From a virus, in the IMG/VR virus record IMGVR_UViG_3300045144_000032, positions 1 to 42,011 of that record: a stretch of DNA of 42,011 nucleotides. One strand, 5' to 3'. Below, piece after piece: positions 101-42,011 of the stretch. The notes beneath the pieces were generated by a model. It saw only the letters and a list, made by a program, of their open reading frames with translations. It was not told the DNA's origin and did no database searches. The position numbers and the translations under genes are program-made. Position 1 is the first letter of the stretch; each line of letters starts with the position of its first letter.

Positions 101-125
101 GGCAACTATCCCTTGACACCACGTA
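101..125 (+). repeat. left terminal inverted repeat of the IS
   Basis: It matches the reverse complement of 3480-3504 at 21/25 bases, with the first 12 identical. Unlike the right end it contains a consensus -35 box. Confidence 0.75.
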
Positions 126-141
126 TTGTTTGTGATATAAT
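113..141 (+). promoter_or_regulatory. consensus sigma-70 promoter for the transposase
   Basis: TTGACA at 113-118 and TATAAT at 136-141 are separated by 17 bp. The -35 box lies inside the left inverted repeat. The expected start is near 148, followed by the Shine-Dalgarno GAGGGGGA and ATG at 162. Confidence 0.8.
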
Positions 142-161
142 ACGTGTGTGAGGGGGATAAA

Positions 162-1034
162 ATGAACACACCAAATCGAACCCAAATAGCCAAATACACA
201 TACAAGGATTTTGAAAGCGAATTTCCAGATAACGATGCCTGCCTTAAATGGCTTAAGGACTATCGATTCCCTGATGGCATTCGCTGCCCCGTTTGCGACA
301 AGATAACTAAACACCATAAGATAACCAAACGACCTTGTTTTAAGTGCGACAATTGCGGGCATGAAGTTTATCCCCTTGCTGGCACGATATTTCATAAGTC
401 TGCCACACCACTTAAGACTTGGATGGAAGCTATCTTTTGGATGGCTACTACTCGTTCTGGGCACTCTGCTAAAGAACTCCAACGCCGAACGGGTGTTACA
501 TATAAAACTGCTTGGAGAATGTTCAGGCAAATAAGATCGCTGCTCGGCGAGAATACCCCTACACTTATTGGCGAGGTGGAGGTTGATGAAACTTACGTTG
601 GTGGAGTCAGACGTGGCAAAAGAGGTAGGGGAGCCGAGGGCAAGGTTTCTGTTATTGGGGTAGTCCAAAGACAAGGAAAGGTCATAGCTACCGCTGTTCC
701 TAATGTCAAGCGGTCTACCATCGTTCCTTTTGTTACAAGCCATGTAGCTCCTGATGCTGTTCTTTATACTGATGAGTTTCCGAGCTATGACCATATAACC
801 CGCTTCGGCTATAAGCATCACAGGATTCAGCATAGTGCCAAAGTCTATGTTGCCGGTCGAGTTCATACCAACAACATCGAGAACTTCTGGTCTCTGATTA
901 AGCGTGGCATCAGTGGCGTTTATCATGCTGTATCACCTAAATACTTACAGTCCTACCTTAACGAATATGCCTTTAGATATAATCACCGCAAAGACGAAAC
1001 TCCTATGTTCAAGTTGTTTCTGAATCAGATTTAA
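162..1034 (+). CDS. IS1595-family transposase
   Basis: A 290-aa DDE transposase expected to cut and join the element ends. The N-terminus carries a zinc ribbon (C42xxC45, then C62xxC65) of the kind found in IS1595 transposases. A helical DNA-binding stretch with AKELQRRTGVTYKTAWRM follows. The catalytic domain shows VDETYVGG (D142), YTDEFPSY (D204) and HTNNIENFWSLIKRG (E240 or the preceding Asn). The ATG at 162 is preferred over the in-frame GTG at 144 because GAGGGGGA lies 5-6 bases upstream. The gene is full length with no visible lesion. Its last 26 bases are shared, antisense, with the end of the methylase gene. Confidence 0.92.
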   Translation: MNTPNRTQIAKYTYKDFESEFPDNDACLKWLKDYRFPDGIRCPVCDKITKHHKITKRPCFKCDNCGHEVYPLAGTIFHKSATPLKTWMEAIFWMATTRSGHSAKELQRRTGVTYKTAWRMFRQIRSLLGENTPTLIGEVEVDETYVGGVRRGKRGRGAEGKVSVIGVVQRQGKVIATAVPNVKRSTIVPFVTSHVAPDAVLYTDEFPSYDHITRFGYKHHRIQHSAKVYVAGRVHTNNIENFWSLIKRGISGVYHAVSPKYLQSYLNEYAFRYNHRKDETPMFKLFLNQI

Positions 1035-3405
1035 GTTCATTGCCTGTTGGTTGTTTTATGGGCTGTGCTGCTTTCTTAACAATGGTATGGAACTGGTCTC
1101 TGGTAATGCCTTCTTCACTGATAGTATTTTCCTCACCCATGTAACGGTCTACGTATTCATCTATATTCTTTTTCACCCTATTGACCTCCGTCGCATATTT
1201 GTCTAAATCATTCTCAAGGGATACTAAGCTTTCGATGTCTGAGTCCGATGGCTTCGGGGTTTTTATTCTAGTTAATTCAGTATAAGGTAAATTAGCACGT
1301 GCAGAACCGAGAGAGTAATTCATTATCACCCTAAGGTATCTTTGGCTTTTTAACAAGGATTCAAGGTATGGAGCGGGATAATCACCAGAGATGGGGCGAA
1401 ATACTACATATGCAGGACTGACAAGCATACCATCTAAATATGATGGTACTATGCCGATGCTACCAATATTGACCCTGTATGGATTGTAAACCAAATCACC
1501 CTTGCGTACTCTCTTATATTTCTGAGTAAACTCATAACCTAGAATCATATCATCAAGAAATACACCATTTTGAGATACTTTCAATACTCCCCACAATTGG
1601 TCTGGGCTATTTCTAGGGTCAACCTTATCTTTTACTTCCTTAATGATGCCACCACTTAACTGACTGAGGTCTCCCCCAACATCAGGGATATCTTCCATGT
1701 AATAGAAAGGTCGTAGATTCCATTTACCACTTGCCTTTATGACATCTCTATCAACAATATTGACTTGGGCCTTAATAATTTTTGGTTCATCATATTCACT
1801 GAGTAACTTCTTCAAATCACTATCGCCTGGCTTCGGTTTTCTCCTGGTATTCAATTCAAAACCATCATTGTATACTACAAAGAAATAGACATGCTTAAAT
1901 TGTCCACCTTTCCTAAAATAGATGATATTGGTTTTTGTAGGTGTATAAGGCATAAACACCCCACGTGGCAAGGAAATGACGGAGAACGTTTTTGCATTCT
2001 GCATTATCATTTCTCTAGTCTTGCCAATAACCCCACCATCATAAAGGAATGTTTCGGGGACAATCACTGCTGCTCTGCCATCGGGTTTTAAAGCTCGCCA
2101 AATGTGCTGTATGCAAACCGAATCAGCATTCTTGGTGGGGATGTCATAATACCCCCCAAACTTAGTTTCTTGTGAATATGGTATATTCGATAGGATTACG
2201 TTATACTTATCATTTACAGGATTTTGAAGGCTATCTATCTGGTCAATATTTGAATGCCCATCTTCAAATAAAATCATGTTCATCCGAGCGATGCGTGCTG
2301 TTGATGTAAACTCTCGTCCAAATACTGTTCGTTCCCTTAATGTCTCTAAAACTGTCGGGTTTTTAATGTCAACTCGTAGAGATAAATATTTGAATGCCTC
2401 TAACAGAAAACCACCTGTCCCGCAGAATGGGTCGTAGATTGTTTCTCCATACATGGGTTTTACCAAATTGACCATTGTCCGCACAATATGCCGGGGTGTG
2501 AAATATTCACCCAAATCCTTGTTGCCATGAGTAACACTCTTAAGGAAATATTCAAAGGCATCACCCTTTATATCTGTATCAGTAGCCAAGAAGTTTATTT
2601 GACCAATCGTTTTGACAATTTCCTGCAATGTCGACGAGTTGCGAATTGCTAATTGGGGGGAGAATATTTCACCATATTGTTCTGTTATTTTCGGCCAGAC
2701 TGAATCATGCACAAAGGTATACAGTTCATCATTACTATTCTCATACTTCTCGCTGAAATAACTCCAACAATATTTCTCATCAATTTTTCTTGGTATGCCA
2801 CGATGCTCATTCAGCCTTTCTGATTCATCAAGTAACTTAAGAAACAGGATTTCAGCAAAGGCTGAAAAACGCTCGTAGCCAAATCTTAAACCCTCTTCCC
2901 GCAATAGATTATTTGTGGCTTTGAAAATGGCTAGTAATTCATCACGTGTGTATTTAATGCCCTTAGGGGCTGACAGTAGTTCTGGGCCTTCTCTAATAAA
3001 CCGCAATGCTAGAAATTGATCAATAAAATCTTGTATTTCTTCACCATCAATTTTTAGCGGTCTGTCTTGGAATATATGCTTTGCTGTAACAAATGTATCA
3101 TTGAATGCGAAGGCTAATGGGGCATTTAGTGGTTTCGCATAGCGTTCAACGGCTTGTTTCATTGCAGTATCAAGGTCTTCGCCTGGACGCTTAGCCTCAA
3201 TAACGCCTAAAGGGTGTGTGGTATTTGTCTCATATAGAACATAGTCTGGCTTTTTACCACTAAATAATGCATTCTGTTCATCTGTTCTGGCTTGTCCTTG
3301 TGTTACATCACATGTTGGGTCTTTCTCATTGAGATTCCAATGTAGATTCATCAAGCGGATGTTTATCTGGGTACGTGTGTGTTCCTCAAGTGGCGGACGA
3401 ATCAT
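1009..3405 (-). CDS. single-chain HsdR_N / N6-adenine methylase / specificity protein
   Basis: A 798-aa protein from the ATG at 3405, which has GGAGGGGG seven bases upstream; an in-frame ATG at 3462 lies in poorer context. Residues 1-140 resemble the type I restriction R-subunit N-terminal nuclease fold, with PD at 53-54 and EAK at 70-72 (PD-(D/E)xK). Residues 170-560 are an HsdM-type methylase: motif I DPFCGTGG at 325-332 and catalytic NIPY at 407-410. Residues 590-760 look like one target-recognition domain (GVLKVSQNG, YNPYRVNIGSIG, LPYTELTRIKTP), followed by a helical tail. The order is that of a type IIG-like enzyme. Whether the nuclease is active is not known. It lies inside the IS, convergent with the transposase. 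In the partial second copy at the window end the C-terminus reads through into the inverted repeat instead of ending SDSETT. Confidence 0.85.
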   Translation of the reverse strand: MIRPPLEEHTRTQINIRLMNLHWNLNEKDPTCDVTQGQARTDEQNALFSGKKPDYVLYETNTTHPLGVIEAKRPGEDLDTAMKQAVERYAKPLNAPLAFAFNDTFVTAKHIFQDRPLKIDGEEIQDFIDQFLALRFIREGPELLSAPKGIKYTRDELLAIFKATNNLLREEGLRFGYERFSAFAEILFLKLLDESERLNEHRGIPRKIDEKYCWSYFSEKYENSNDELYTFVHDSVWPKITEQYGEIFSPQLAIRNSSTLQEIVKTIGQINFLATDTDIKGDAFEYFLKSVTHGNKDLGEYFTPRHIVRTMVNLVKPMYGETIYDPFCGTGGFLLEAFKYLSLRVDIKNPTVLETLRERTVFGREFTSTARIARMNMILFEDGHSNIDQIDSLQNPVNDKYNVILSNIPYSQETKFGGYYDIPTKNADSVCIQHIWRALKPDGRAAVIVPETFLYDGGVIGKTREMIMQNAKTFSVISLPRGVFMPYTPTKTNIIYFRKGGQFKHVYFFVVYNDGFELNTRRKPKPGDSDLKKLLSEYDEPKIIKAQVNIVDRDVIKASGKWNLRPFYYMEDIPDVGGDLSQLSGGIIKEVKDKVDPRNSPDQLWGVLKVSQNGVFLDDMILGYEFTQKYKRVRKGDLVYNPYRVNIGSIGIVPSYLDGMLVSPAYVVFRPISGDYPAPYLESLLKSQRYLRVIMNYSLGSARANLPYTELTRIKTPKPSDSDIESLVSLENDLDKYATEVNRVKKNIDEYVDRYMGEENTISEEGITRDQFHTIVKKAAQPIKQPTGNELKSDSETT
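1030..1143. repeat. direct repeat, first copy
   Basis: These 114 bases are identical to 41898-42011. They cover the 3' end of the methylase gene. The copy at the window end stops exactly where the window stops, so the repeat may be longer, or it may be an assembly overlap. Confidence 0.9.
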
Positions 3406-3458
3406 AGAGACACCCCCTCCCTCCATGTCATTTGCTAGTGCTGTAGTGATATAATCTA

Positions 3459-4400
3459 TCATAGCACTTTTACCTTATGTACGTGTAGTGAGGGGATAGT
3501 TGCCAAAGTGTTATAATCAGGGCAAAAGTCCCGCACTTCACAGAATCTTGTGCAGCGCCGCCCATCCCAGCGTTCCTCTTTATCGCAAATGGGGGGTAAT
3601 CCCTGTTTCTCTAAAGCGGTTAAAAGTTTCTCTCGTTTAGCATGAAAGTAATCCCGTATCTCATCATCGGGTAATTTCTTTATGGGGATTGTGTAAAGTT
3701 TGTTTGTAATTCCCCGCTTTTCGGCAACCTCCAACCCTCCGTCTCGGATATAAATTCTTAACAATAAAACGTCTACGGGGAAGGTGGCATCTTGCCAGAA
3801 CAGTCTATATCGGTTGAGTTGCAACTTCTCATCCTTTAGGTCTGCCATGTCGGGATTAAATCCCCAAATCGGTATCATTTTCGGGGTTCCAGCCTTTCCC
3901 CAATACCCAGAGGTTTTATAGACTTCCCCTTCGGGGTCTGGCTTCTTGCCCACCATGACAATCCCCAAAGCTCTGGCGGCGGCATAAGAACCCCAGAATT
4001 TATAATCTGACAGGACATGAATACCATCCTCGACTTCGTAATTGTCCGATAACCCTGTCATCTCCTCATCTTCTAAAAACTGTTCCAAAATACTGTGCTT
4101 CGTATCAGCACCTTCCAGTTTCTTGTGCCCCTTTGTCCCAGTGAACATAAAAACAAGGTCTTCGGGAGATACAAAATAGTCCTGCGTTAGTCTTAAATAA
4201 GCTATCCGTGTCGGAAGGATTAACTGGGTCGTGGACGGCTTCCCTTTCCATTGCCTGACCTGTGCCATCGCCGACATTTGGGATAACGTCCCGCAGCGGC
4301 GGACATTAAAGCCATTAACCTGAATAGGCTGGCGGCATTTAGTCAGACATTCCTCATGCCTTATCTTTTCACCATTAGGGCAGATAAAGCCTACTTGCAT
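3459..4400 (-). CDS. Cas4/RecB-like PD-(D/E)xK exonuclease, 3' end replaced by IS end
   Basis: A 313-aa protein. The ATG at 4400 is chosen over the TTG at 4406 because GGGGAGG lies 8 bases upstream. An N-terminal cysteine (ICPNGEK, then C..C) and a C-terminal cluster (CDKEERWDGRRCTRFC, then DFCPDYN) fit the iron-sulfur cysteines of Cas4/AddB-type nucleases. Between them, the sequence around HVLSDYKFWGSY gives the D..DxK nuclease signature. Such phage enzymes usually process DNA ends in recombination or replication. The last residues (ATIPSLHVHKVKVL) are encoded by the transposon inverted repeat, so the natural C-terminus was lost just after the last cysteine; activity may survive. It overlaps the preceding gene by 10 bp, as in an operon. 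Confidence 0.6.
   Translation of the reverse strand: MQVGFICPNGEKIRHEECLTKCRQPIQVNGFNVRRCGTLSQMSAMAQVRQWKGKPSTTQLILPTRIAYLRLTQDYFVSPEDLVFMFTGTKGHKKLEGADTKHSILEQFLEDEEMTGLSDNYEVEDGIHVLSDYKFWGSYAAARALGIVMVGKKPDPEGEVYKTSGYWGKAGTPKMIPIWGFNPDMADLKDEKLQLNRYRLFWQDATFPVDVLLLRIYIRDGGLEVAEKRGITNKLYTIPIKKLPDDEIRDYFHAKREKLLTALEKQGLPPICDKEERWDGRRCTRFCEVRDFCPDYNTLATIPSLHVHKVKVL
3463..3504 (-). repeat. right terminal inverted repeat, 42 bp
   Basis: It is the exact reverse complement of 41857-41898, with identity ending sharply on both sides. The outer 25 bp are the right end of the IS. It replaces the natural 3' end of the Cas4-like gene, whose reading frame runs through it. Confidence 0.9.
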
Positions 4401-4966
4401 TCCCAATCCTCCCCATTCCAGACCTTGTTATGTTTCTCCATCATCACAAAGGCAAGCCAAAGTTGTTCCATTGAACCAAAGACACCTATCGGAGTAACGG
4501 AATCCTTATACTCCCAATGTCTACGAATAAAAGCATCAAACCTTTCAAGTAGATGGTCTAAATCGCTCGTCCCCTTAACCATCCCCTGTAAATCGTCTTG
4601 GCGGGGCAGCCAAGTACATTTTTCAATTTCTTTCCACTCCTCATCTTCTACCCTACCATGATTTAGCCCAAACTCAACCAACATTCTTGATTGGGGATAG
4701 GTTGAATCTGTCTTAATGTGATGTTCTTTGTCAATGCTATGGTTTATAAACGTAACTCCCCTAATTCCCTTGTTGGCTGCCACCCAACTGGGGTTCTCAT
4801 CTTTATAATTATGTTTACTATATACGCTAGTATGGTCTGATTTGCATTTCCGCCTATAAAAAATGAAGTCGGGTATATAAGCCAAATCACCTTTTTGCGG
4901 CAGCCATATCCTTTGTATCTCAATTGCCTTCTCGCACATCTTGATATAGATTTCTGAAGTGTCCAT
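4391..4966 (-). CDS. conserved phage protein of unknown function
   Basis: A 191-aa soluble protein beginning MDTSEIYIKMCEKA with IWLPQKGD, later WLPRQDDLQGM, and ending SMEQLWLAFVMMEKH plus VWNGEDWE. The repeated WLP.. and the terminal LWLAFVM-NGE pattern recalls small proteins found in many phage early regions (from memory; no search done). No catalytic motif is evident. The start overlaps the stop of the upstream gene (TAATG-type coupling), and its end overlaps the nuclease gene by 10 bp. This places it in the recombination/replication operon. Confidence 0.6.
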   Translation of the reverse strand: MDTSEIYIKMCEKAIEIQRIWLPQKGDLAYIPDFIFYRRKCKSDHTSVYSKHNYKDENPSWVAANKGIRGVTFINHSIDKEHHIKTDSTYPQSRMLVEFGLNHGRVEDEEWKEIEKCTWLPRQDDLQGMVKGTSDLDHLLERFDAFIRRHWEYKDSVTPIGVFGSMEQLWLAFVMMEKHNKVWNGEDWECK

Positions 4967-8043: not shown

Positions 8044-8661
8044 TTATATCTTTAGCTCCATAACTTCCTGATAGCATCTTTTGGCTGCGATTTCACAATA
8101 CTTTTCCTCAATTTCGATTCCAATAGAATATCGGTTTAATTTCTTGGCACAGTAACAGGTTGTGCCTGAGCCGAGAAAGGGGTCAAGAACTAAGTTGTTT
8201 TCACTTGTAAACTTTTCGATTAAAGCCAAAGATGGCTCAATTCCCTGTTGCCATTCATGGCTTATTTTTACCCGCTTGCTTTTTATAACATCAGGACACC
8301 ATCTGGTTTTATTCGCCTCACCGTTACTGAAGACAACAATGGGTCGCCAACGTGAGTGGGTATTTGTCTTAAAATATCTTAAATCACTACTGAGTTGTAA
8401 TACGCAATAAATCCAAAAGTAATGCCATCTCCTGAATGAATAAATAATACTCGGTACAAAATTGCTGCCACCATATATAGCAATAAAGCCGCCTTCTTTA
8501 ATAACTTGAATAGTGCCAAGATAATCATAAAATTTCTTTGCAGACTTATTCCACGGCGGGTCGGTCAGCACCAAGTCCACCTTAACATCCAACTGTGGCA
8601 ATATCTCTTGGCAATCACCGTGATAAATTGTTACCCATTTATCCTGATAGTAGGGTTTCAC
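8044..8661 (-). CDS. DNA adenine (N6/N4) methyltransferase
   Basis: 205 aa with a GTG start at 8661, supported by AAAGGGG just upstream. It begins KPYYQDKWVTIYHGDC, carries catalytic DPPW (TDPPWNKSAKKFYDY) near residue 35 and the SAM-binding motif DPFLGSGTT near residue 160. Motif IV before motif I is the beta-class order (Dam-unrelated, N6_N4_Mtase family). The target is unknown. The start overlaps the stop of the SemiSWEET-like gene. Short sequences matching its N-terminus recur at 41533-41583 and 35736-35783. Confidence 0.88.
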   Translation of the reverse strand: MKPYYQDKWVTIYHGDCQEILPQLDVKVDLVLTDPPWNKSAKKFYDYLGTIQVIKEGGFIAIYGGSNFVPSIIYSFRRWHYFWIYCVLQLSSDLRYFKTNTHSRWRPIVVFSNGEANKTRWCPDVIKSKRVKISHEWQQGIEPSLALIEKFTSENNLVLDPFLGSGTTCYCAKKLNRYSIGIEIEEKYCEIAAKRCYQEVMELKI

Positions 8662-34801: not shown

Positions 34802-35743
34802 TCACTCCTTATTTTCTTGACTACAGCGCCTAGCTGTGATTTTGCGGTGTATCATTTGGTTAAATTTATGAAATTTATCATTACATCCAGTCACACAATG
34901 TGGGTCTTCCCCTGGTTTGCCAGGGGGTCTTACATGGTCACGAAATAAATGCGAACAATAAAATTCCTGCCCGTATTCATCATAGAGCCTTTCTGTCATT
35001 GACAGATAACACGGTATTCCAATATTTTGTGGGAAGTAATTTCCATTACGATTATGTGTAGTATCAAAAATATGCTTTGAAACAGGGTCTAGTTTTTCAG
35101 AAGCAACAAATAATATATCCACATCATTTTTAGTTAATGCCATACCGCCATCGCCCTTGAAAAAGGATGCACTAACTGAGTAAAGATTAGGAAAATTGTC
35201 CTGACAAAATTCTATAAATCCACTGAATCTGTGGGCGTTTTGATGTGTAGCTGTATATGACACTGAGACGTGCTGGACATATTTTGTAGCCTCTTTTATA
35301 TTGGACACGACCTTATTGAAATAATTACCACCGACTGTTTCATTCCACCTAGTAGAGTCAAAGTCATCAAGTGATGTCTTTATTCTGAACAAGGATTCAA
35401 GGGCTTTACGTTTAGGTAAATGGAGCAAGTTGGTATTTAACGCCATTTTAACTTTGCCTCGCTGCTTATAAATCTCATCATCTAGCCACTTAACACAAGT
35501 TGGCTCTCCGCCTGTAATATGTATAATTCCATTTCTACCTGCCCGTTCGCACAAGGATTGAAATAACTTCCTGTCCATCACTTGATTGCCCTTAACCTCG
35601 TGGCAGTAAACACACCTCATATTACAACGATTTGTTAGGTGAATTGCAAATCTAATCACATCGGGAACCTGCCCCCGTTTTAATGCAGCAATAGTTTCAT
35701 TCGCCCGTTCTTCAATTCTATCCCAAAAAATATTGTCAATCAT
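34802..35743 (-). CDS. radical SAM enzyme
   Basis: 313 aa. TNRCNMRCVYCHE (CxxxCxxC, 4Fe-4S ligands) near residue 40 and the SAM-binding HITGGEPT near residue 75 define the superfamily. Beyond the barrel core, PCYLS, EFYCSHLF and HCVTGCNDKF supply four to five cysteines suggesting an auxiliary cluster as in SPASM/twitch proteins. No peptide substrate gene is evident nearby, though the adjacent Cys-rich 75-aa and 49-aa proteins could be partners. Substrate unknown. The ATG at 35743 lies inside a short methylase-like leader (35736-35783). Confidence 0.85.
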   Translation of the reverse strand: MIDNIFWDRIEERANETIAALKRGQVPDVIRFAIHLTNRCNMRCVYCHEVKGNQVMDRKLFQSLCERAGRNGIIHITGGEPTCVKWLDDEIYKQRGKVKMALNTNLLHLPKRKALESLFRIKTSLDDFDSTRWNETVGGNYFNKVVSNIKEATKYVQHVSVSYTATHQNAHRFSGFIEFCQDNFPNLYSVSASFFKGDGGMALTKNDVDILFVASEKLDPVSKHIFDTTHNRNGNYFPQNIGIPCYLSMTERLYDEYGQEFYCSHLFRDHVRPPGKPGEDPHCVTGCNDKFHKFNQMIHRKITARRCSQENKE

Positions 35744-39003: not shown

Positions 39004-39234
39004 TTATTCATAATGTTTATAGTTACGAGATTTATGTTTAACATTCTCTTTATTAGAAAGGATAATACGCCGATATTCACGATTCTCTGCCTCAAGTTTA
39101 GCGATTCTGTCTTTTAATGTCTTGACTTCGGGGCTATCCTCTGTGGGGTCTTCTAGGGGCGGGAAATAGGCATCCCCTTGTCCGTAATATCCCCGTCCCG
39201 TACCGACAAAAGTTGGCTTTGTAAGGTCTCTCAT
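39004..39234 (-). CDS. 76-aa coiled-coil protein
   Basis: From ATG 39234, overlapping the stop of the beta-helix gene as ATGA. N-terminus MRDLTKPTFVGTGRGYYGQG is Gly/Tyr rich; a coiled coil follows (VKTLKDRIAKLEAENREYRR) and a basic Lys/His tail. Unknown function. Confidence 0.5.
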   Translation of the reverse strand: MRDLTKPTFVGTGRGYYGQGDAYFPPLEDPTEDSPEVKTLKDRIAKLEAENREYRRIILSNKENVKHKSRNYKHYE

Positions 39235-40172
39235 TCTTTCCCCTCTGGTTTCTGATAAGTAGCTACCATCTCCACAAAAGCTCGGTAGATAGGATATAAC
39301 TCTTTTCTTAAACCGAGTTTTACCGCCATCCCAACATCTACTGCAAGCCATTCGGTAATAGTTTTCACCTCACAGCCTATCACGATTTTATCATCATTGA
39401 CTGTAGCTGTGTATTGTAGTCCATTGAAGGTTACACCATTAAGACTACAAGGTACTTTTGTATCGGGTAATATTCTAGCGTTCTGCCCAATTCTAGCGTC
39501 CTGCCCGATTACAGCGCCCTGTCCAATTATAGCGTCCTGCCTAATTGTAGCGTACTGCCCAATTACGGCGTTCTGCCCGATTATAGCGCCCTGCTCGATT
39601 CTGGCGTCCTGCCCAATTACAGCGTACTGCTCGATTACAGCGTCCTGCCTAATTGTAGCGTACTGCCCAATTACGGCGTTCTGCCCGATTACAGCGTTCT
39701 GCCCGATTCTGGCGTCCTGCCCAATTACAGCGTACTGCTCGATTACAGCGTACTGCCCGATTATAGCGCCCTGTCCGATTACAGCGTTCTGCCCGATTAC
39801 AGCGTACTGCCCAATTGTAGCGTACTTCCCGATTACAGCGTACTGCCCAATTGTAGTGTACTTCTCGATTACAGCGTACTGCCCAATTGTAGTGTACTTC
39901 TCGATTACAGCGTACTGCCCAATTGTAGTGTCCTGCCTGATTATAGTGTCCTGCCCGATTATAGCGCCCTGTCCAATTATAGCGTTCTGCCCGATTATAG
40001 CGCCCTGCTCGATTCTGGCGTCCTGTCCAATTATAGCGTTCTGCCCGATTACAGCGTTCTGCCCGATTATAGCGCCCTGCTCGATTCTGGCGTCCTGCCC
40101 AATTACAGCGTACTTATCACGCCAAAATTCTACCCTACTACCATCTGGATTCGTGCGTTCTACTTTTTCCAC
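39231..40172 (-). CDS. hexapeptide-repeat left-handed beta-helix protein
   Basis: 313 aa. Residues 22-237 consist of 36 uninterrupted hexapeptides of the form A(V/I/R/T)IGQ(N/D/G/Y), exactly the left-handed beta-helix pattern (Ile inside, then Gly or Glu, two polar, small, any), equal to 12 coils. N-terminal cap MEKVERTNPDGSRVEFWRDK. A C-terminal domain (residues 238-313: VPCSLNGVTFNGLQYTATVN, then helices EWLAVDVGMAVKLGLRKELY) resembles conserved C-termini of phage early-region proteins. No acyltransferase catalytic His or loop insertion is seen, so an enzyme is unlikely; a binding or decoy role is possible. AGGAGG precedes the ATG. Confidence 0.65.
   Translation of the reverse strand: MEKVERTNPDGSRVEFWRDKYAVIGQDARIEQGAIIGQNAVIGQNAIIGQDARIEQGAIIGQNAIIGQGAIIGQDTIIRQDTTIGQYAVIEKYTTIGQYAVIEKYTTIGQYAVIGKYATIGQYAVIGQNAVIGQGAIIGQYAVIEQYAVIGQDARIGQNAVIGQNAVIGQYATIRQDAVIEQYAVIGQDARIEQGAIIGQNAVIGQYATIRQDAIIGQGAVIGQDARIGQNARILPDTKVPCSLNGVTFNGLQYTATVNDDKIVIGCEVKTITEWLAVDVGMAVKLGLRKELYPIYRAFVEMVATYQKPEGKE
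39462..40109. repeat. 18-bp tandem repeat array in the beta-helix gene
   Basis: Thirty-six 18-bp units (plus-strand form like gcgttctgcccgattaca), varying at a few positions only. The array reads open in the reverse direction too, giving a false long plus-strand frame. High identity suggests recent expansion and length variation. Confidence 0.85.
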
Positions 40173-40502: not shown

Positions 40503-41549
40503 TTAACTCCATAACTTCCGAAATACCAAAATATCTTCCCTGTCAATCACAGGCGCATCGGGATATTTCTGTTGGTATATGATTCGCCAAAATGATTGAG
40601 CGGTTAAACGCCGATAATGGCGTTCAATGAGTGTAAATCTTGCCTGTTCGCAAAGTTTGATAGTATCTTCATCAAGCGGTACTATCTTCTTATTGCGGAT
40701 AAAGTTTTTCGTAACTAATACAAGCAATCCACCATTTTTGAGTACCTTAAAACACTCAGAATAGACCTGAAGCATGGCAGAAAGATAGGACTCACCTTTT
40801 AGGTTGCCGATATTGCCAGAGCTAGGCGCATACCCCAATTGACCATAGGATGAAAAACCCCTAGCCCTATGCCAAGTTTCACCTGTTGTTCTGCCGTCTA
40901 TTCTGCCATGATTCATTGCCCGCCACTCTGATTCAGTATATCGCTGACCCTGCCATTCTACATAGCCCTTTGTGGCAAGCTCATTAAGAACCCACTCCTG
41001 AAACTCGGCACGACCTGTTTGCCAATCGCCTATACCCATTTCGGCATAGGGGGGTGAAGTGATGATACAGTCGGGCTGGTAGCCCTTTGAAATTGCTACC
41101 GAACCACCACTAAATTTTCTTTCCCTTTTCTCATCCCACCAAGGTTCTTTTGATTTATCTCGTTTTAGTGTAGCCTCATAAGGTGGGCTGGTTATAATCG
41201 CATCACATAGTATCCCCTCTAAATTCCGTGCATCGCCACGCAGAATTGTAGCCGTTCCCATTTCATAGCCCAGCTCAGCCCCAAATGTCTGAATCTTTGC
41301 CCAATTATCTTCCTGCATACGGACAAACTTCTGCTCTAGTTCAACCAAGATAACGTGTCTTCCCATCGTGCAAGCCACCAAAAGAGTTCCACTTCCCCCC
41401 ATTGGGTCAAGGATTACATCGCCAGGTTTGGTATATCTCTCTATAAGCCAACGCTGGAGAGGAAGCGGCATCTTGGCTGGGTGTGCAAAATGATTGGCTG
41501 TCAAAAACCTCTTGCGGTGTTTTGTGTCGGATTTAAAGATTATTTCCAT
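40503..41549 (-). CDS. DNA methyltransferase, TSPPY type (N4-cytosine or N6-adenine)
   Basis: 348 aa. SAM motif I VILDPMGGSGTLL near residue 48 precedes the catalytic TSPPY (AIITSPPYEATL near residue 120, with a second CIITSPPYAEMG near residue 165). TSPPY is usual in N4-cytosine methylases. A duplicated TSPPY is odd. A central insert (GRIDGRTTGETWHRARGF) may read DNA. Together with the 205-aa enzyme it could protect phage DNA from host restriction. The start lies within a short methylase-like leader (41533-41583). Confidence 0.85.
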   Translation of the reverse strand: MEIIFKSDTKHRKRFLTANHFAHPAKMPLPLQRWLIERYTKPGDVILDPMGGSGTLLVACTMGRHVILVELEQKFVRMQEDNWAKIQTFGAELGYEMGTATILRGDARNLEGILCDAIITSPPYEATLKRDKSKEPWWDEKRERKFSGGSVAISKGYQPDCIITSPPYAEMGIGDWQTGRAEFQEWVLNELATKGYVEWQGQRYTESEWRAMNHGRIDGRTTGETWHRARGFSSYGQLGYAPSSGNIGNLKGESYLSAMLQVYSECFKVLKNGGLLVLVTKNFIRNKKIVPLDEDTIKLCEQARFTLIERHYRRLTAQSFWRIIYQQKYPDAPVIDREDILVFRKLWS

Positions 41550-41583
41550 ATATTACCCAGTTGTCCTGATAGTAGGGTTTCAT
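41533..41583 (-). pseudogene. 16-codon leader resembling a methylase N-terminus
   Basis: ATG at 41583 encodes MKPYYQDNWVIYGNNL then TAA. KPYYQD.WV.Y matches the start of the 205-aa methylase. Its own ATG overlaps the upstream stop (ATGA), and the 348-aa gene starts in its sixth-last codon in another frame. Confidence 0.55.
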
Positions 41584-41857
41584 TTCCCTACCTTCCCTTC
41601 TAAAATCTGCTGTTTAAAATGTTGCCAGTCTTCCTCCTCAATATCATAGTGAATTTGTATCTCAGTTTCACCGTGCCATTCATCGATGTCTCTCTCAATC
41701 CGCCGTTTACATTTAAATAAAGATTCAACGGTATTAACAATCGCCTGTCTTTCAGCCTGCTTCTCAGCCTCGGCATCTTTGAGGTTTTGGTCTAGTTGGG
41801 CTTGGGCAATAGATTTACAAAGAGGTTCAACGCAGACTCCAAGCGGTAAATCATTAG
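41580..41857 (-). pseudogene. 5'-truncated paralogue of the LDQ..KDAEAEK family
   Basis: The frame (NDLPLGVCVEPLCKSIAQAQ...) starts at the inverted-repeat boundary 41857; an in-frame TTG formed by the repeat is the only start. By comparison with the paralogue at 36818-37078, about ten N-terminal codons are missing. The element therefore inserted into, or next to, its start. The C-terminus (DWQHFKQQILEGKVGK) is intact. Confidence 0.55.
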
Positions 41858-41898
41858 GCAACTATCCCCTCACTACACGTACATAAGGTAAAAGTGCT
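41857..41898 (+). repeat. second copy of the 42-bp transposon end, inverted
   Basis: Exact reverse complement of 3463-3504. Here it is fused directly to the methylase 3' end (41898 onward) with no transposase between, unlike the copy at 101-1034. Confidence 0.9.
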
Positions 41899-42011
41899 TT
41901 AAGTTCATTGCCTGTTGGTTGTTTTATGGGCTGTGCTGCTTTCTTAACAATGGTATGGAACTGGTCTCTGGTAATGCCTTCTTCACTGATAGTATTTTCC
42001 TCACCCATGTA
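41898..42011. repeat. direct repeat, second copy
   Basis: Identical to 1030-1143 for 114 bases up to the window end. It encodes, on the minus strand, the methylase C-terminus, which runs into the inverted repeat and ends ELKALLPYVRVVRG. Confidence 0.9.

Follow-up and report, generated by a model that had tools for sequence, protein, structure and literature searches.

Insertion sequences of the IS1595 type are known to carry passenger genes (tIS), as in ISNha5, whose passengers are transcription regulators (Siguier et al. 2009, as cited in PMC11891212), and tIS have also been treated in general (PMC7986276). Single-chain restriction-modification (R-M) enzymes of Type IIG/IIC have been reported as over-abundant on mobile elements (PMC4176335), and R-M genes have been shown to move by way of IS and composite transposons, with retention by post-segregational killing having been proposed (PMC3031569, citing Furuta et al. 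2010). Here we analyze an element at positions 101–3504 of a 42,011-base viral contig (IMG/VR record IMGVR_UViG_3300045144_000032; this whole stretch is called the window) and its relatives. They are like the IS1595 tIS in transposase, terminal repeats, internal passenger gene, and, for the relatives, 8-bp target duplication, but the cargo here is a complete enzyme with restriction, modification, and specificity parts in one chain (R-M-S), and it ends in a tail common to other cargo types. With Type IIG/IIC enzymes, the protein shares the joining of nuclease, N6-methylase, and recognition functions without a helicase; it differs from them in its HsdR-type nuclease, in its single HsdS-like half, and in being carried within a simple IS, not next to one. 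Similarly, the R-M genes of IS and composite transposons are linked to IS mobility but are situated between IS copies or beside them, whereas here the gene is internal cargo, co-inherited with the transposase. R-M-S homologs of Acinetobacter phages (e.g., JX403940, 36%) and of a Geobacillus plasmid (47.7%) have the same domain order and a similar length, but they are without the tail, and no IS1595 transposase adjoins them in the regions examined. We regard a passenger-carrying IS1595 transposon (tIS), with a compact Type IIG-like R-M-S cargo and a shared tail, as very probably the best explanation overall.

The element in the window is delimited by terminal inverted repeats at 101–125 (+ strand; GGCAACTATCCCTTGACACCACGTA, fitting the clade pattern GGNNNNTATCCCYTNACANNANGTA present in relatives) and 3480–3504 (− strand), which match at 21 of 25 positions; in 60 shuffles of both end regions, the best result was 17. 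Between them is an IS1595 transposase (ORF 144–1034, +, starting at GTG 144 or ATG 162), with a zinc ribbon at ∼225–362 (PF12760, E = 9e-10) and a DDE domain at ∼564–983 (PF12762, E = 2.3e-46). The protein also matches NF033547 (E = 3.6e-66), scoring 223 bits for a cutoff of 75. With its ISXO2/IS1595-type DDE transposase, N-terminal zinc ribbon, and enclosing inverted repeats, this is an IS1595 element. A perfect sigma-70 promoter-like site for the transposase is found at 113–141 (+; TTGACA-17-TATAAT with extended −10, 12/12 matches), its −35 hexamer lying inside the left terminal repeat. The R-M-S ORF (1009–3462, −) is convergent with the transposase ORF and overlaps it by 26 bp. The original prediction, of an IS1595-type element with matching inverted repeats enclosing a transposase and, convergent to it, a fused nuclease-like/N6-methylase/target-recognition protein, is borne out by these ends and domain matches. 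No 8-bp target-site duplication is present at the window copy: the flanks (TAAAATAA and AAAGTGTT) differ, possibly because they come from two copies, and the left flank (1–100) has no match in other viral contigs or elsewhere in the window. The remainder of the phage encodes, among other things, two additional DNA methylases of its own (8047–8661 and 40506–41549), a radical SAM protein (34805–35743), and a repeat protein (39234–40172) with units such as IGQNAVIGQDARIEQGAI and strong DNA self-similarity at 39472–40118.

Domain matches describe the cargo as a single polypeptide of 817 amino acids, although an ATG at 3405 (residue 20) is the more likely start, as it aligns with the start of the homolog in L002 (see below) and has a strong Shine-Dalgarno sequence. 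An HsdR-like nuclease domain of the PD-(D/E)xK type (3073–3405, −; HSDR_N, residues 69–125) is followed by an N6-adenine methylase domain (1696–2580, −; N6_Mtase, residues 295–589) with motif I DPFCGTG and motif IV NIPY. The C-terminal part, by domain match and model, comprises one HsdS-like target recognition domain and a long helix, that is, a half-S (1132–1725, −; Specificity_I, residues 580–777). The nuclease residues, for which a profile check had been proposed in advance, are D73, E89-A-K91, Q103, and Y108; across seven homologs, neither the catalytic pattern PD...EAK...QxxxY nor methylase motif I varies. Nearly all homologs have NIPY at motif IV, and L010 has NPPY; the usual form in DNA methylases is NPPY/F, so the NIPY form counts against the Type IIG-like explanation. 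No helicase domain was found in the R-M-S protein. As one chain that unites nuclease, N6-methylase, and specificity domains, it would be a Type IIG-like enzyme; it departs from Type I R-M systems, which have a separate HsdR with a translocase motor and a separate HsdS, in being one gene with the HsdR N-terminal domain only. Against the model for the MAD2 methylase of the MADS defense system (NF047738) it scores 115 bits, the equivalog cutoff being 720 bits. Among solved structures, those nearest to it in sequence and partial fold are HsdM and HsdS subunits and the type IIB enzyme BsaXI; the AlphaFold model is poor (mean pLDDT 55), and only its recognition half and some parts of its nuclease can be used. 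Within the element we found no clear promoter for the R-M-S gene, so its expression may hinge on the insertion site.

Three relatives have R-M-S and transposase genes between inverted repeats, with target duplications outside both genes. The element in a Chloroflexi contig (L029) is 77% identical to that of the window in DNA from end to end, encodes an R-M-S protein 85% identical, and is flanked on both sides by the perfect 8-bp duplication AAATATAA, with bacterial housekeeping genes on either side. In the tail-gene region of another viral contig (L002), the R-M-S protein is 67% identical and the perfect 8-bp duplication is ATTGACAA; in a third viral contig (L010), the IS1595 element encodes an R-M-S protein 43% identical and has the perfect 8-bp duplication TAAATTTA. 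As these duplications show, the passenger has moved with the ends in all three, and the pairing of transposase and R-M-S is real in general. The original prediction had staked itself on homologs of the methylase occurring between IS1595 ends, as they do here. The enzyme also lies within an element in L135, codirectional with the transposase, while L004 is a remnant with the R-M-S gene, one end, and a transposase reduced to its last 41 amino acids. In the R-M-S tree, a single clade (96/94) unites the window, L029, L002, and L004 and lies apart from chromosomal homologs of Kaiserbacteria, Uhrbacteria, Rickettsia, and Sphingobacteriales. The placement of L010 and L135 elsewhere forces at least two label changes, so the tree indicates at least two captures of R-M-S enzymes by IS1595 elements.

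We delimited 57 sister elements from viral contigs and Chloroflexota genomes (median length 2.1 kb, ∼1.2 kb beyond the transposase); among 400 Chloroflexota genomes sampled, 52 gave a transposase match at E ≤ 1e-40. Target duplications matching at 8/8 positions were found in 49 of the 57 elements, a count that is inflated because the search favored duplications. Downstream, the largest ORF faces the transposase (convergent) in 41 elements and runs in its direction in nine. Cargo is present in most, including type II R-M systems and solitary methylases, while the R-M-S cargo occurs in the window, L029, L002, L010, and L135. The element at L144:5935–7947, with ends identical over 26 bp and an 8-bp duplication, carries a C5-cytosine (5mC) methylase and an NgoFVII-type PLD endonuclease, both codirectional and forming a complete type II R-M pair; L146 carries a type II methylase and a second gene. 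Solitary methylases, D12 and N4/N6 (L014/L025 and L091), and SspD-like PAPS-reductase proteins (L075 and L112) are further cargo, as are DUF3800 proteins, trypsin-like peptidases, P63C and Panacea-antitoxin proteins, and membrane proteins. D12-class adenine methylases with a small coupled tail ORF lie in IS1595 elements at L025:4195–5853 and L027:4297–5956, where the ends are near-perfect and there is no target duplication. At L057:1443–3061, the cargo of an IS1595-type element comprises a P63C gene and an antitoxin-like gene with a Panacea domain. Short MITE-like elements at L054:3459–4243 and L007:7680–8427 have IS1595-type ends and perfect 8-bp duplications and are without a transposase. 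Finally, a possible Mom-like or DruA-like gene adjoins a lone IS1595-type end at L028:7196–7812; the likeness to Mom is an impression, the DruA match in Pfam was weak and below cutoff, and PADLOC gave none.

The R-M-S proteins of the window, L029, L002, and L004 have ∼30 final residues that are extra with respect to non-IS homologs, with the core TRDQFHTIVKKAAQP (TxxxFxxLLxKAxxP). In the window, this C-terminal tail is GITRDQFHTIVKKAAQPIK, encoded at 1054–1110 (−), and profile and pattern matches identify it in unrelated cargo proteins of sister elements; it is absent from six non-IS R-M-S homologs. It ends membrane proteins (L073 and L182) and peptidases (L009 and L181), and it stands alone as a small ORF in L007, L021, L066, L078, L161, and L184. 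These small ORFs matched nothing over cutoffs in Pfam and NCBIfam, and no family could be assigned from them. Using HMM profiles built leaving out the tested group, the tail was detected at ≥8 bits in 19 of the 57 elements versus one of 4888 control antisense ORFs, and at 15 bits in 11 elements versus no controls. A weaker variant, NPxHxxDFxxLLxxAA, judged by eye only, is seen in L010, L110, L124, L127, and L137.

The window copy itself offers grounds for a different reading, in which transposase and R-M-S gene are joined merely by misassembly or chance proximity and the latter is a phage gene proper. Besides the missing target duplication, the right end of the contig repeats the right element end (41857–41898), here fused directly to the R-M-S 3′ end (feature 41857–42011): 114 bp (41898–42011) are identical to 1030–1143, and there is no transposase between. 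Two copies may therefore have been merged during assembly to give the element at 101–3504. Moreover, the element truncates an exonuclease-like phage gene, of which the 5′ part lies at 3505–4406 (−; ORF 3462–4406) and the probable 3′ part at 41580–41856 (−); joining 3505 to 41856 keeps this gene in frame and open for ∼91 further codons. The truncated ORF matches PHROG 2139, a hit that the joined sequence did not give, and the joined gene has no homolog among named phages. The same phage is represented by an independent contig, 99.95% identical, that likewise breaks within the R-M-S gene. Nevertheless, L029, L002, and L010 keep the pair, its order, and its orientation between inverted repeats with perfect duplications, which rules out misassembly as the sole cause and refutes this reading as a general explanation; even in the phage copy, element ends flank the R-M-S gene on both sides. 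We consider it very improbable. Misassembly, which the original prediction had named as its own potential undoing, is thus dismissed for the pairing in general and kept as a possible origin of the window's composite. From the open frame alone, we infer that the phage circle would consist of 3505–41856 together with a copy lacking the transposase (end, R-M-S, end), while 1–1029, including the unrelated 100-bp flank, would belong to a full copy elsewhere, merged during assembly via the identical enzyme gene. In the resident phage copy, the transposase has probably been lost, leaving the enzyme, the tail, and two ends. Hence the predicted self-spreading element in a phage holds in that the cargo lies between ends in the phage contig, but the self-mobility of the phage copy is put in doubt by the contig ends, which suggest an absent transposase.

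The function of the enzyme and the nature of the tail also admit other readings. The cargo could be an anti-restriction methylase protecting phage and element DNA, its nuclease domain being a relic. Such a role would suit the sister elements, in which solitary methylases (D12, N4/N6) or SspD-like genes are frequent cargo with no obvious nuclease, as well as the phage, with two more methylase genes of its own. It is at odds, however, with the invariance of D73, E89, K91, Q103, and Y108 in the seven homologs, and with the complete two-gene type II system in the sister element of L144, and we find it rather doubtful. As for the tail, in most elements it is encoded on the strand opposite the transposase gene, within ∼75 bp of the stop codon of the latter, as would be expected if it were a by-product of a DNA-level constraint at the transposase 3′ end (a terminator or antisense reading) and not a protein feature. 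This appears improbable: the tail is 962 bp from that stop in L181 and 166 bp in L009, differences between sequences fall mainly at codon position 3 (e.g., 3/1/12 and 3/5/18), and the methylase elements have it as a separate small ORF whose start abuts or overlaps the cargo stop. A hairpin or other DNA-level cause was also rejected, as the folds had no common structure and the codon-position counts favor protein. To judge from these counts, the tail is under protein-level selection.

Under the preferred explanation of a tIS with R-M-S cargo, the IS1595 transposase would recognize the ∼25-bp ends and move the whole 3.4-kb unit, with 8 bp of target duplicated on insertion, as shown in relatives and presumed for the window copy. 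The R-M-S enzyme, which from its domains would be expected to methylate and cut DNA, is probably dimeric and would mark and cut a bipartite target. The gain for the element would probably be retention in the methylated cell or phage, defense of the replicon against other DNA, or both; immunization of phages and addiction of hosts, as originally proposed, are plausible putative roles. The cargo would remain tied to the element through the C-terminal tail it has in common with unrelated cargo of the same clade. Tentatively, we suggest that the IS1595 clade may possess a small accessory protein (core TxxxFxxLLxKAxxP), and that the tail could act as a cargo tag, for example by binding transposase or ends; diverse cargo would have been repeatedly fused or translationally coupled to it, thus becoming stable transposon parts. 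The simplest guess is that the tail interacts with the transposase.

A literature search whose scope stopped short of Siguier et al. (2009) and Furuta et al. (2010) gave no account of IS1595 elements with R-M cargo, nor any of the tail. Because IS1595 elements with passengers, and R-M genes on IS and transposons, were already described, the novelty of the R-M-S cargo is narrower than had been implied; the tail is most likely the new part. These elements reveal a minimal and recurrent route by which R-M and DNA-modification genes pass between phages and bacteria, inside one simple IS, and they make the idea of R-M enzymes as transposon retention modules testable. If functional, the tail would represent a new principle for the acceptance of cargo by transposons.
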